Shown here: one piece after another, positions 50,049 to 59,421 of the stretch
Layout of the letters: each line of letters begins with the position of its first letter
Numbering within the stretch: the first letter of the stretch is position 1
DNA from: Verrucomicrobiales bacterium
GTDB taxonomy: Bacteria > Verrucomicrobiota > Verrucomicrobiia > Verrucomicrobiales > DEV007
Assembly (NCBI GenBank): GCA_029213065.1
Contig: JARGPH010000026.1
Coordinates: 1-64,000 of the forward strand
DNA: 64,000 nt
Reading direction: 5' to 3'
Position numbers and translations under genes: made by a program
The notes under the pieces: model-generated
What the model was told of the DNA's origin: nothing
What the model saw: the letters and a program-made list of their open reading frames with translations, nothing else
Database searches by the model: none

Positions 50049-50501
50049 ATGTCTACTTCAACAGAAATCACCTTTGGAAACCGTGACGACCGCAAAGCGG
50101 TGGAGATCGGCCATACTTTTTCCCCTAAATACGACAGCGACGGCCTCATCGTTGCGATCGCTCAGGACGCCGACACGAACGAAGTTCTCATGGTCGCCTA
50201 CATGAACGAGACCTCTCTCAAACAGACAATCGAGATTGGTGAAGCGGTTTACTTTTCACGCAGTCGTCAGCAACTCTGGCACAAAGGGGCAACCTCCGGT
50301 CACACCCAGACAGTCGAGTCCATTCTCACTGACTGCGATCAGGACGCGCTCGTGCTCAAGGTACGCCAACATGGCCCCGGTTGCTGCCACGCAGGATATA
50401 GAAGTTGCTTCTATAGAAATATACAGGGCGCCGGTGACCCTGTAGCCTTGGGGCAGGAAATTGAGGAACAGTCCTACAATCCTGACGAGGTTTACAAGTA
50501 A
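50049..50501 (+). CDS. hisI: Phosphoribosyl-AMP cyclohydrolase
   Basis: Histidine-pathway enzyme of 150 residues that opens the ring of phosphoribosyl-AMP. VLMVAYMNETSLKQTIEIGEAVYFSRSRQQLWHKG is the family core (split here by normal family variation). It is followed by the metal-binding DCDQDALVLKV and QHGPGCCHAGYRSCFYR, which supply the Zn/Mg ligands (Asp and Cys residues). There is no HisE (phosphoribosyl-ATP pyrophosphohydrolase) fusion. Other his genes are absent from the window. The gene is divergent from tmk, with about 86 bases between starts. Confidence 0.96.
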   Translation: MSTSTEITFGNRDDRKAVEIGHTFSPKYDSDGLIVAIAQDADTNEVLMVAYMNETSLKQTIEIGEAVYFSRSRQQLWHKGATSGHTQTVESILTDCDQDALVLKVRQHGPGCCHAGYRSCFYRNIQGAGDPVALGQEIEEQSYNPDEVYK

Positions 50502-50565
50502 GCCCTTTTACTGTAAAACCCGTCCCGCACAGCAAAACCCCCGAACTTTTTTTTCCGATCCCACC

Positions 50566-52539
50566 ATGAAATCTCTCTGGAACAACAGCGAAGCCCGCAA
50601 ATACAAAGGCGACTTAGGAAAGCGCGTCTACACGTCACGCCTTCTCGGTGCCAATCCTGAACTGGTTCTTCACGGTGGCGGAAATACTTCCGTAAAAGTG
50701 ACGGAGAAAGATTTCTTCGGGGACTCCACCGAGGTGCTGTATGTGAAAGGTTCCGGTTGGGATCTCGGCACGATCGAAGCAGAGGGGTTTGCCCCCGTGC
50801 GGATGGACGCACTGCTCAAGCTTTCCAAACTCGACACGCTCAGTGATGCCGAGATGGTGAAGCAGCAACGCGCCGCGATGTTGAACCCTTCCGCTCCGAA
50901 CGCGAGCATCGAGGCGATTCTCCACGCGGTGATTCCCCAGAAGTTTGTCGATCACACCCACGCGAACGCGGTTGTCGCCCTGACAAACCACAAAGGTGGA
51001 CGCCAGACGATTGAAGAAGTCTATGGCGACCGCGTCGTCGTGATCCCCTACGTCATGCCGGGATTCGATCTCGCGAAAGCGGTCGTGAAGGCGCTCGAGA
51101 ACGTCGATCCTTTCAAACTGGAAGGTATTATCCTGATGAATCACGGCATCTTCACGATGCACGATGATCCCCGTGAGAGCTACGAGCTCATGATCAAGCT
51201 CGTAACCGAAGCCGAGATTCACCTTTCAACAAAGCTCGGCAAGAGCTTCGCCTACCCCACTGCCAAGGCGGAGGAGGATCTTCTTGAACTCTCCTCAATC
51301 CGGAAGCAGGTCTCGGATCTTCGCGGCACCGCCGTGATCGCGACACTCGATCAGTCCCCTGAAGCGGCCGGTTTCGCGAGTCGCCCCGATGTTGCCAAAC
51401 TCGCGACACGCGGCCCACTCACTCCCGATCACACGATCCGCACGAAGCGTGTTCCCGTCGTCATCGGAAAGGACTCGAACAAATCGATCTCTAAATTTGC
51501 AGCCGACTACACCAAGTATTTCGACAAATACAACAAGGGAGAAACGATCCTTCCCGCCGATCCCCGCTGGGCGGTCTGGCAGGAAAAAGGAGTGATCAGC
51601 TTTGGCGCGACCGAGAAGGAAGCCGGGGTGCTGTCAGATATCTCCAATCACACCTGGCACACCATTCAGCAGGCTGAGGCCGCTTTCGACGGAGGCTGGA
51701 AAGCACTCCCTGCCGGAAAACTTTTCGAAATCGAATACTGGGAACTCGAACAGGCCAAGCTCGCCAAAGGTGGAAGTGCTCCGCGTCATCAGGGAAAAGT
51801 GGCGATCGTGACAGGCTCCGCTGCCGGGATCGGATTTGCCTGCGCGGCCTCCCTCGCTGAACAGGGAGCGAAGGTGATCGGTATCGATCTCAGCCCCGAA
51901 ATCGAAGCGCAAATGGAGAGCATCGGCGGAATCGGTATCGTTGCGAACCTGACTCAGGATGACAAAGTCATCGCCGCAGTTGAGCGGGCCGTTCGAGAGT
52001 TCGGCGGTATCGACATCGTTGTGAGCAATGCCGGTATTTTCACCGCAGGTGCCTACCTCGAGAATCTTGAGGAGAAAAACTGGGACCTTTCCATGGCCGT
52101 GAATCTCACGAGCCACCAGAAGCTTCTCAAATACACGATCCCCTTCCTCAAAAACGGAATCGATCCCGCAATCGTCCTCGTTGGTTCGCGAAATGTGAAT
52201 GCTCCGGGTGCCGGTGCCGCGAGTTACTCATGCGCGAAGGCAGGACTTACTCAGCTTTGCCGCGTCGCCGCTCTCGAGCTCGCGCCTTTCGGGGTGCGTT
52301 GCAACATCATCCACCCGGACGCGGTGTTCGATACGAAGCTCTGGACTGAAGAGAACCTGAAGCGTTCCGCAGAGCGCTACAACATGACGGTTGAGGAATA
52401 CAAGACCCGCAACCTTCTCAAAACCGAGATCAAATCGAAAGACGTCGGTGACATGGTCGCCGCGATGTCGAGCCCCCTCTTCGGCAAAACCACCGGAGCA
52501 CAGGTTCCGGTTGACGGTGGCAACGATCGAGTGATCTAA
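50566..52539 (+). CDS. Bifunctional class II aldolase / short-chain dehydrogenase (rhamnose-type)
   Basis: Fusion of 657 residues. The N-terminal class II aldolase (about 1-400) has LVLHGGGNTSVKV, metal ligands in VDHTHANAVVAL and a later His in ILMNHGIF. The C-terminal SDR (about 405-657) has the NAD site VTGSAAGIGFACAASLA, SNAGIF, and the catalytic Ser and Tyr-x3-Lys in LVGSRN and SYSCAKAG. In relatives such as YuxG/RhaEW the two halves cleave rhamnulose 1-phosphate and oxidise lactaldehyde to lactate. An AraC regulator lies 2.7 kb downstream, but rhaA/rhaB/transport genes are not in view, so rhamnose is inferred. The ATG at 50566 follows the hisI stop by 64 bases; an in-frame earlier start would overlap hisI and is unlikely. 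Confidence 0.9.
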   Translation: MKSLWNNSEARKYKGDLGKRVYTSRLLGANPELVLHGGGNTSVKVTEKDFFGDSTEVLYVKGSGWDLGTIEAEGFAPVRMDALLKLSKLDTLSDAEMVKQQRAAMLNPSAPNASIEAILHAVIPQKFVDHTHANAVVALTNHKGGRQTIEEVYGDRVVVIPYVMPGFDLAKAVVKALENVDPFKLEGIILMNHGIFTMHDDPRESYELMIKLVTEAEIHLSTKLGKSFAYPTAKAEEDLLELSSIRKQVSDLRGTAVIATLDQSPEAAGFASRPDVAKLATRGPLTPDHTIRTKRVPVVIGKDSNKSISKFAADYTKYFDKYNKGETILPADPRWAVWQEKGVISFGATEKEAGVLSDISNHTWHTIQQAEAAFDGGWKALPAGKLFEIEYWELEQAKLAKGGSAPRHQGKVAIVTGSAAGIGFACAASLAEQGAKVIGIDLSPEIEAQMESIGGIGIVANLTQDDKVIAAVERAVREFGGIDIVVSNAGIFTAGAYLENLEEKNWDLSMAVNLTSHQKLLKYTIPFLKNGIDPAIVLVGSRNVNAPGAGAASYSCAKAGLTQLCRVAALELAPFGVRCNIIHPDAVFDTKLWTEENLKRSAERYNMTVEEYKTRNLLKTEIKSKDVGDMVAAMSSPLFGKTTGAQVPVDGGNDRVI

Positions 52540-52560
52540 CAACGGGTTTTCCCCGACTAA

Positions 52561-52703
52561 GCCGGTGGTTCGCCACCGGCAATCACATCAACGGTAGATG
52601 CGCCTCTACCGGCGGGCAGATCGCCCGGATCTCCGACGGTATCCTCTTCGAAGGCCGCCGTGATAGCAGAACACCGTCGGCTATGCCTTTTGGCACAAGG
52701 CAT
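52561..52703. repeat. Cluster of five consecutive hairpins downstream of the aldolase gene
   Basis: Stems in order: GCCGGTGG-TTCG-CCACCGGC (52561-52580); CGGTAGA/TCTACCG (52592-52611); CGGGC/GCCCG (about 52612-52626); CCGACGGT/ACCGTCGG (52633-52640 with 52673-52680); ATGCCTT/AAGGCAT (52683-52703). All are perfect. The first is a stable UUCG-loop hairpin placed 21 bases after the stop. Most of the 285-base gap is thus structured. It could be a 3'-end stabiliser, a degenerate palindromic (REP-like) element or a structured RNA. Confidence 0.7.
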
Positions 52704-52824
52704 CTACCTGGAAACGGAGACAGCCGAAAGAAGCGGAAGAACCCAATCGTATTTTGCGAGAGCTAATACTAAGGTTGGCCATGGCTTGAACGTGATTTAA
52801 GCTTAGCGCCCCCCGCCACATTTT

Positions 52825-55116
52825 ATGAGCGACTCTTCTTCTGACCTTCCTGAAAAACCCGGACCGTTCGCCTCGCTCTCTGCGAACACGGGCAATCCGG
52901 CATCCAAATCGCCGAAAAAGAAGAAGAAGAAAAGCAAACGAAGCGGATTGTGGCGCCTCTTTCGCTGGATCGTAATCCTTGGTTTCATCAGCGGAGCTGC
53001 CACAGGCATTGGCGGTTGCGTTTACTACAACGGCAAGGCGCTCACTTTCGATATGAAGGAGCTGAAGCAGGTTCCGCAGCGCACACTCGTCTTCGATCGA
53101 AACGGCGAACAGATGGGCCACGTTTCCGGTCATGGAGAGAACCGACTCGTCGTGCCCGCTTCCGAGGTCTCAGAACACTTTATCAAGGCATTGCTCGCTC
53201 GCGAGGACAGTCGATTCTACGATCACGACGGTGTTGACTACCGCGGTCTCGCACGCGCCGTAGTCGCGAACTTCAAAGCCCGGGGCATGGAACAGGGAGC
53301 CTCCACCCTGACGATGCAGCTCGCCCGAAACACCTTCGGGATGAGAGAGAAGAGTCTCAACCGGAAATTCATGGAGGTGGCTTTGGCGAAACGGATTGAG
53401 CGCAAATACACCAAAGAGGAAATCCTCGGATTCTACATGAACCGGGTCTATTTCGGATCCGGACTCTACGGGATCGAACGGGCCTCGCAGGGCTATTTTA
53501 TGAAACCGGCCTCCGACCTGAGCCCGGGCGAAGGCGCCATGTTGGCCGGGGTGATCCGGGGGCCGAGTCTTTTGAATCCTTTCCGAAGCATGGAGAATGC
53601 AACGGACATCCGCGATGAGGTTCTCACCCGGCTCGTAGCCGAAGGCACGATTACCGAAGCGCAATCGACCGCAGCGAAGAACGAGAAAATCACACTCCGC
53701 CCGCCTGAACAACGCCTCGCCACGGGGAGCTACGTTTTGCAAAGCATCTTCGATCTTATCGAGGGTTTCAAAGAGCGTTCGAATTTGTCTGATGAAGATA
53801 TCCAGCGAGGCGGCCTCAAAATCTACACGACGATCGACGCGACAATGCAGGCCGCTGCCGAGAAGGCGCTCGATGGGCATCTCACCTCAATCGAGAAACA
53901 ATCAGGATTCAAACATCCTCCACGCAGCGCACACAGGAAAGGCGAGGCCACTGACTACCTCCAGGGAAGCGTCGTCTCAATCGACAACCGCGACGGCGCC
54001 ATACGCGCTTTGGTTGGCGGGCGGAGCTTCGCTGAAAGCTCTTACAATCGAGCTTTTCAGTCCGCCCGGCAGGTGGGATCGACCTTTAAACCCTTTGTTT
54101 ACGCAGTCGCTTTTGATCGTGGCGGACTCCTCCCCGGCGCCTACGTCAGCGATGACGCCCTCCGAATCGATATGGGAGGCGGGGCTCCAATCTGGTCTCC
54201 GAAAAACAGTGACGGCACATTCACGGGGCTTCAGCCCGCCGCGATCGGACTGATCAGATCACGCAACACGATGTCCGTAAGAGTCGGCCAGATCGCCGGA
54301 CTCGATAACGTGCGCAGCCTCGCCAATGCTCTCCAGCTGGGTGAGCTCCCAAACTCGCCGGTATCCTACCTCGGCGCCTTCGAGACCAGCAACTACGCCC
54401 TTACAAGTGCCTACTCCGTTCTAGCCGCGAGAGGAACAAAAATGATTCCCTACATGATCGAACGCATCGAGCTGCCGAACGGTGATACGATCCAGCAGCA
54501 TCAGGTCACGGGGATCAGGATCTTTCCGGAATCCGTCGCCTACATCACTTCCGAAATCATGGGGGAAACGATGGACAACGGAACTGGAGCGGGAGCCCGC
54601 CGACAGGGTTTTAAAGCACCGGCTTACGGAAAAACCGGAACGACGAACGATTATCGCGATGCCTGGTTTGTAGGGTTTACTGACAAAATCACAACGGGTG
54701 TCTGGGTCGGACTGGACCAACCTAAGACGATCATGAATCGCGGCTATGGAAGCACCCTTGCACTGCCCGTTTGGACTGAAGTCATGAAAGCCGCCGAATC
54801 GGCAGGTTTTCCCGGCGAGAAAATCCCCGCTCCGGAGGGGACCGAGCCACGATTGATTTGCCGGGAATGCGGCCTCAACGCATCCAACCGAACCCAACAT
54901 GTTTATCAGATGGACCTCCCCAACGACTTGCGCCCCCGCTCAACCTGCCGGGGCCATGGCATGGGAATTTTCTCGAGGAATAACGGTGACCCTCAGGCCT
55001 TTCCTTTCGGTGAAGATCCCAATGCGATGCCTCAAGACCGGCGTCCGCCGAACGATGACGGTATCGGCAAGGCATTGCGGGGACTCGGCAGGTTCATTTT
55101 CGGCGGAGGCAGATAA
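52825..55116 (+). CDS. Class A penicillin-binding protein (PBP1A-like)
   Basis: Bifunctional peptidoglycan synthase of 763 residues. A Lys-rich cytoplasmic tail (KKKKKKSKRS) precedes one transmembrane helix (about 44-66). The glycosyltransferase domain has its catalytic Glu127 in LAREDSRFYDHDG and then GASTLTMQLARNTF and KRIERKYTKEEILGFYMNRVYFG (split motif, family-typical). The transpeptidase domain has S419-x-x-K in GSTFKPFVYA, SRNTM as the S-x-N motif and K603-T-G in YGKTGTTNDYRDAWFVGFT. The tail beyond about 690 carries two Cys pairs (CREC, then C further on) and a low-complexity Pro/Arg end. All catalytic residues are intact. Confidence 0.95.
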   Translation: MSDSSSDLPEKPGPFASLSANTGNPASKSPKKKKKKSKRSGLWRLFRWIVILGFISGAATGIGGCVYYNGKALTFDMKELKQVPQRTLVFDRNGEQMGHVSGHGENRLVVPASEVSEHFIKALLAREDSRFYDHDGVDYRGLARAVVANFKARGMEQGASTLTMQLARNTFGMREKSLNRKFMEVALAKRIERKYTKEEILGFYMNRVYFGSGLYGIERASQGYFMKPASDLSPGEGAMLAGVIRGPSLLNPFRSMENATDIRDEVLTRLVAEGTITEAQSTAAKNEKITLRPPEQRLATGSYVLQSIFDLIEGFKERSNLSDEDIQRGGLKIYTTIDATMQAAAEKALDGHLTSIEKQSGFKHPPRSAHRKGEATDYLQGSVVSIDNRDGAIRALVGGRSFAESSYNRAFQSARQVGSTFKPFVYAVAFDRGGLLPGAYVSDDALRIDMGGGAPIWSPKNSDGTFTGLQPAAIGLIRSRNTMSVRVGQIAGLDNVRSLANALQLGELPNSPVSYLGAFETSNYALTSAYSVLAARGTKMIPYMIERIELPNGDTIQQHQVTGIRIFPESVAYITSEIMGETMDNGTGAGARRQGFKAPAYGKTGTTNDYRDAWFVGFTDKITTGVWVGLDQPKTIMNRGYGSTLALPVWTEVMKAAESAGFPGEKIPAPEGTEPRLICRECGLNASNRTQHVYQMDLPNDLRPRSTCRGHGMGIFSRNNGDPQAFPFGEDPNAMPQDRRPPNDDGIGKALRGLGRFIFGGGR

Positions 55117-59059: not shown

Positions 59060-59421
59060 CGGTTAGCCGTTAGCTCCTCGGATCGCATTCGCAGGATAGA
59101 GCCGGAGGCTCATCAGAAATTAGCGCGGTGTGGAGCGCCGCGGAACGCCGGGACCTTCCGCATCAACGCCAGCCCGGCCCTGAATGGGCCGCAGAAAGGC
59201 TACGTCGCGTTCTGCGGCACCTCCGGCGCCGATCCGTTGGCGTTCTCAAATCCGGTGGTTTCACTTCGTTCCACCACCGGCTGATTTCTATCGAACCTCC
59301 GGTTCTACCCCACCTCCGGTTCTGCCCCAAATCCCTCCACGCCTCAGAAGAATCTTCAATTCTAACGAAACTGTCATCTTAGCGTTCATTTTATTGTCAG
59401 GTTGAAAGTCTTATTTGGGGT
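59060..59421. repeat. 362-base gap rich in palindromes and a 17-bp tandem repeat
   Basis: No coding region is supported. Stems: GGCCC/GGGCC (59176-59190); GCCGCAGAA/TTCTGCGGC (59188-59196 with 59210-59218, 9 bp); CCGGTGGT/ACCACCGG (59252-59259 with 59273-59280). A 17-bp unit ACCTCCGGTTCTRCCCC occurs twice in tandem (59295-59311, 59312-59328). The CCGGTGG...CCACCGG core also occurs at 52561-52580 after the aldolase gene. The last 90 bases before the peroxidase gene are AT-rich and probably hold its promoter, though no clear boxes can be assigned. Confidence 0.7.

Follow-up and report, generated by a model that had tools for sequence, protein, structure and literature searches.

What is a run of perfect hairpins between two co-directional genes of a Verrucomicrobiales bacterium: a structured RNA, a mobile palindromic element, or separate things lying side by side? 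The run is found in a window of 64,000 nucleotides (contig JARGPH010000026.1, positions 1 to 64,000), in the gap between an aldolase ORF (50461-52539, plus strand) and a penicillin-binding protein (PBP) ORF (52825-55116, plus strand). Its hairpins are unequal units, with four contained in one bounded element at 52593-52708 and the first standing outside it. The bounded element is very probably a GTAG-tagged REP heterodimer, in which REP1 on the minus strand and REP2 on the plus strand are set in inverted orientation, with GGTAG at each outer foot.

Five stems in the aldolase-PBP gap

The initial annotation reported five perfect hairpins in 143 bases, and all five were found again by inspection of the sequence, by an inverted-repeat listing and by a stem script, although the script, whose loop limit is 30 nt, lists four of the five and omits stem 4 with its loop of 32 nt. 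The stems are as follows:

52561-52568/52573-52580: stem 1, 8 bp, loop TTCG
52592-52598/52605-52611: stem 2, 7 bp
52618-52622/52628-52632: stem 3, 5 bp
52633-52640/52673-52680: stem 4, the spacer stem of the dimer (element on the minus strand), 8 bp, CCGACGGT/ACCGTCGG, 32-nt loop
52683-52689/52697-52703: stem 5, 7 bp

The five stems are real and beyond chance; none of 1359 stepped 143-nt windows of the 64 kb has three or more non-overlapping perfect stems of at least 7 bp (loop of at most 30 nt). Folded as RNA, the region 52540-52720 beats its shuffles on both strands, with a minimum free energy z of -4.7 on the minus strand (0 of 200 shuffles equally good) and a less extreme -2.9 on the plus strand (3 of 200). 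The ends of the element, GGTAGATGC and GCATCTACC, are additionally able to pair together, in competition with two local hairpins.

Better-than-shuffled folding on both strands, a position after a gene stop where the element would be transcribed, and the general view that REPs act as RNA too (PMC3733652) all speak for a structured 3'-UTR or intergenic RNA of this gap, whether as terminator-like or exonuclease-blocking hairpins or as a small RNA. On the plus strand of the gap, however, there is no terminator-like site (GC hairpin plus T run), and an intrinsic terminator was rejected on that ground. Moreover, a search of the whole window against Rfam 15 at gathering thresholds gave no match to a known structured RNA.

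A dispersed repeat at the right end

The right end of the run carries the first of the two repeats:

52683..52708, minus strand: REP1, a GGTAG tag plus the imperfect hairpin ATGCCTTGTGCCAAAAGGCAT

A genome search with 52540-52720 as query returned ten matches; apart from the window's own, all nine are confined to the right end. Read on the minus strand, this end follows the pattern GGTAGATGCCTTxTGCCAAAAGGCAT, which has 16 genome matches with at most three mismatches (two being opposite-strand readings of copies already counted), and the reversed pattern has none in the same search. A covariance model (R1), with 150 of 3959 first-look candidates scored, detects at least 14 copies at E < 1e-8 on 12 contigs. 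R1 was built on an alignment (A2) of 13 of the 14 sequences, omitting the copy on contig C69, which has one inserted base and is still detected by the model. When aligned, the copies share 26 conserved nucleotides and then diverge abruptly. GTAG stands at the foot of the palindrome, and GGTAG is invariant in all 14 aligned copies, an invariance to be read with the fact that the copies were partly gathered by a pattern starting with GTAG (up to three mismatches). The repeat measures 26 nt including its tag, with a 9-bp stem in most copies, which places it in the range of about 20-50 nt for a REP palindrome. Covariation in the stem is slight, with two-sided change in one of nine pairs and a covariation score reached by 44 of 500 shuffles. 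The initial annotation had advised a genome search and had held that a lack of both other copies and covariation would count against it; other copies do exist, and the covariation is weak.

Based on heuristic ORFs picked by length alone, 8 of the 14 copies lie between convergent genes, six between co-directional genes and none between divergent genes. No copy lies within an ORF of more than 130 aa, barring 5-nt end overlaps, and two ORFs use the TAG of the GGTAG tag as their end. By the same ORFs, REP1 is dispersed over its 12 contigs and mainly intergenic, among co-directional or convergent genes. GTAG REP families (GTAG-17, -19 and -20) have been reported from the verrucomicrobium O. terrae, and GTAG REPs are described as sitting between co-directional or convergent genes and supplying TAG stop codons through GTAG (Di Nocera et al. 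2013, PMC3733652). The copy number of REP1, at 14 strong copies, is low against the hundreds common among REPs and the more than 100 per genome given as usual in PMC2817692, although a high number is customary for GTAG REPs rather than a strict requirement.

GTAG before hairpins is a genome-wide pattern. In a 1.26-Mb sample, made up of the window and 60 genome stretches, the four letters immediately before a perfect hairpin are GTAG in 86 cases where 15.5 were expected for 6-bp stems, in 56 (4.8 expected) for 7-bp stems and in 28 (1.7 expected) for 8-bp stems; some hairpins are counted twice (two loop lengths at one place), and the expectation uses the same total. This enrichment is second only to that of AAAA, and GGAG is not enriched. 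A stricter, earlier test on stems of at least 9 bp placed GTAG on 2 of 126 hairpins. Among 35 GTAG-tagged hairpins of the sample (stem at least 7 bp, loop 3-26 nt), four are of the ATGCC type, the REP1 kind. A more abundant REP family, GTAG-CGGAA..TTCCG, accounts for 20 of the 35 (loci L087, L095, L109, L117, L124, L125, L130 and L143), and its repeats often form inverted or tandem groups.

Distribution among relatives

In the closest relative, G023, the PBP is 86% identical and the same two genes flank the gap. For the orthologous gap, 19 relatives were compared, seven displayed and G023 alone aligned. The G023 gap (L064 3781-4326, ~546 nt) is mostly unrelated to that of the window, and the 116-nt element is absent from it in the alignment; because the gap sequence is non-homologous, it does not represent a clean empty site. 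Resemblance to the window is limited to the last part of the G023 gap, just ahead of the PBP start codon, where the promoter of that gene may lie. Elsewhere, G023 has one REP1-like match, part of a short inverted pair bounded by GGTAG. Two genomes carry REP1, its own and G023, both among the 33 genomes of the genus and, under stricter filters, among the 74 of the family. The exact REP1 pattern gave no match in the other named genomes, a set to which its own genome possibly does not belong. The REP1 family is nearly confined to its own genome.

Because the orthologous gap in G023 is mostly unrelated sequence, an RNA conserved at this locus was rejected. The structured RNA that the initial annotation offered as one of its two interpretations has against it the lack of an Rfam match and of a plus-strand terminator-like site, the non-conservation of the gap in G023, the little covariation in REP1 and the occurrence of copies in unrelated gene contexts, and despite the favourable folding it is very unlikely to account for the run.

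A partner repeat and the 116-nt dimer

The remaining parts of the bounded element are the following:

52593..52708, minus strand: REP dimer (REPIN / BIME unit, GTAG tags outside), 116 nt, with inverted GGTAGATGC ends
52593..52623, plus strand: REP2, a degenerate partner repeat, GGTAGATGCG plus a bulged hairpin, found with model R2

On the plus strand GGTAGATGC occupies 52593-52601, and on the minus strand it recurs at 52708-52700, with GTAGATGC at 52594-52601 (plus) and 52707-52700 (minus). Because GGTAGATGC stands inverted at both ends, 52593-52708 is taken as a bounded element of 116 nt. Two REPs lie inverted and close together in it with their tags outside, which is the arrangement of a REPIN or HH dimer.

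The REP2 palindrome, GGTAGATGCGTCCCGCCGGGACGC, has three copies genome-wide with at most three mismatches, all of which adjoin REP1 copies, and the reversed pattern has none under the same terms. Model R2 was trained on six sequences, three obtained by the whole-genome pattern, two from beside REP1-like sites and one from the window; it finds six strong copies genome-wide (E < 1e-4), all six being the training sequences, and scores the window copy, itself in the training set, at E=3.3e-5. Each of the six has a REP1 or REP1-like site within ~230 nt, and they make up four strong HH pairs (GTAG outside) and two TT pairs (GTAG inside), these counts leaving out weak REP1/REP2 pairs on contigs C75 and C45 (E 0.03 to 1.5). 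The pairing of six out of six is partly by construction, because the training copies included ones picked beside REP1-like sites. Less biased evidence comes from the three pattern-found copies, all beside REP1, and from R2 having yielded no further strong copy. When the left arm of the window is aligned beyond the shared 10 nt with the REP2 copies of C8, C8 and C49, its score is equalled or beaten by 29, 0 and 3, respectively, of 1000 dinucleotide-shuffled sequences. Judged by its sequence, the left arm is a degenerate REP2, a related GTAG palindrome.

The window dimer can be aligned end to end with three full-length units, one on contig C49 and two, longer in the spacer, on C8; such units span 112-256 nt. 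An 8-bp stem at the spacer position is seen in three of 14 copies, those of the window, C69 and C57 (a different stem in C57), and a spacer stem conserved across the family was rejected on that count. At L029 1501-2036 (G000 contig C8:83981-84516), two REP1/REP2 dimers of ~256 nt stand in tandem, and TATCTTTTTC-like tracts run both ways in the spacer. Singlets make up the majority of REP1 copies.

Inverted 9-nt ends and full-length copies alignable from end to end would also fit a MITE derived from a double-strand DNA transposon, in which GGTAGATGC would form the terminal inverted repeats and a target-site duplication would lie around the element. By eye, however, no target-site duplication accompanies the window copy or the two full-length C8 copies; the majority of copies are REP1 alone, and GTAG before hairpins is common to other families across the genome. 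A MITE is accordingly highly improbable, and the REP heterodimer is retained.

Compared with the GTAG REPs of PMC3733652, the heterodimer and its relatives share the GTAG foot with a short palindrome, dispersal, location at gene 3' ends and TAG stops, as well as HH dimers and heterodimers whose spacer ends are in some cases complementary; they differ in their small number (14 strong copies) and in that the repeat was found on the flanks of none of the transposase genes. With REPINs (Bertels and Rainey 2011, PMC3116915) the window dimer has in common an inverted REP doublet able to fold into a single long hairpin in single-stranded DNA, but its two REPs differ in their hairpins and most copies are singlets. 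REP1 and REP2 appear to be a new small family of the ordinary kind, beside the 24 families of PMC3733652.

The UUCG hairpin

Outside the heterodimer lies the hairpin with which, in the initial annotation, the cluster began:

52561..52580, plus strand: separate 8-bp UUCG hairpin, starting 22 nt past the aldolase stop codon

The hairpin is present as described but does not clearly belong with the other four, and it ends 12 nt outside the REP dimer. In its 27-nt form it is single-copy in the genome. Its core, AGCCGGTGG..CCACCGG, occurs at 14 places in the genome, including 52560-52579 and one place adjoining the Y1 gene of contig C57, and the reversed control has no genome match. Another of these 14 core matches falls in the window itself, at 59252-59282 on the minus strand, in a copy of a palindrome family, AGCCGGTGGT..ACCACCGG, that has GAACCGGAGGTTC..AGAA and GCAGAA-type hairpins at its flanks. 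The UUCG hairpin may be a degenerate relative of that palindrome family or an ordinary gene-end hairpin. Were it a degenerate AGCCGGTGG..CCACCGG member, all five hairpins would be of REP origin, which is compatible with the dimer reading of the rest and is favoured by the 14 places, the empty control and the copy beside the transposase gene. By eye, however, the hairpin mostly lacks the flanking hairpins of the 13 other copies, a UUCG loop could equally mean a plain 3'-end hairpin, and there is the 12-nt separation from the dimer; a common REP origin of all five is thus possible but doubtful.

Y1 transposases and a proposed route of spread

The genome has four Y1 transposase genes, three above the cut-off of the IS200 model and a fourth that scores 75.3 bits with the REP transposase model, just under the 80 bits required there. 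All four have palindromic repeats nearby, as judged by eye, but the ATGCC (REP1) repeat was not found beside any of them in flanks of up to 1.5 kb, in an assembly that is 96.2% complete. The C57 Y1 gene has GGTAG-CGC palindromes on both sides. In a survey of this gene and eight relatives (9 of 26 loci), GTAGCCGGTG GTAG palindromes stand on both sides at five of the nine loci, all five in other genomes. Such flanks are laid out as in a REPtron, though with a repeat other than the ATGCC one. The RAYT-like gene (236 aa) at L012 has near-identical long palindromes, GGACATCCCTGTCCGT..ACGGACAGGGATGTCC, on both sides (991-1116 and 1828-1985). Set beside REPtrons, that is TnpA-REP and IS200/IS605 Y1 enzymes (PMC8266576), the genome is alike in having four Y1 genes, one with relatives flanked by GTAG palindromes, and unlike in that none of the four is flanked by the REP1 family, three being IS200-model proteins and the fourth falling short at 75.3 versus 80 bits.

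Of the two interpretations in the initial annotation, the mobile palindromic element is upheld in its anatomy, namely the sharp-ended dispersed copies, the GTAG tag, the absence from the G023 gap and the location at gene 3' ends, but not in respect of a cognate transposase, which was not found among the four Y1 genes. The family has probably spread through the genome by means of a transposase. Next to the anatomy, copies, sharp ends, tag, placement, distribution and G023 absence observed, we infer the following mechanism of transposition from sequence comparison. The REP dimers would be miniature non-autonomous elements, the palindromes of which may fold in single-stranded DNA, e.g. the lagging-strand template. 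An HUH/Y1 transposase of the RAYT (TnpA-REP) kind would then recognize GTAG and the hairpin, and cut and rejoin the strand. The dimer would thereby be copied or moved, and would mostly settle at gene 3' ends, being harmless there. Because no transposase flanked by the REP1 family was found, mobilization is proposed to occur in trans, and the enzyme might be a Y1 transposase acting in that manner, one since lost, or one missed by the assembly. In a narrower version, REP2 would be an obligate partner of REP1 without a dedicated transposase, the pair being moved in trans by an IS200-type Y1 enzyme whose own palindromes share only GGTAG with it; this is unlikely. As a secondary effect, the hairpins may act on the 3' end of the aldolase transcript.

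Significance

The heterodimer adds a further verrucomicrobial lineage to the known range of GTAG REP dimers. Since the genome combines several GTAG palindrome families with few Y1 transposases, it raises the question of whether one transposase can serve different repeats with nothing but the tag in common. Taken alone, the dimer is an ordinary repeat, and it counsels caution against calling such hairpin clusters riboswitches or small RNAs.
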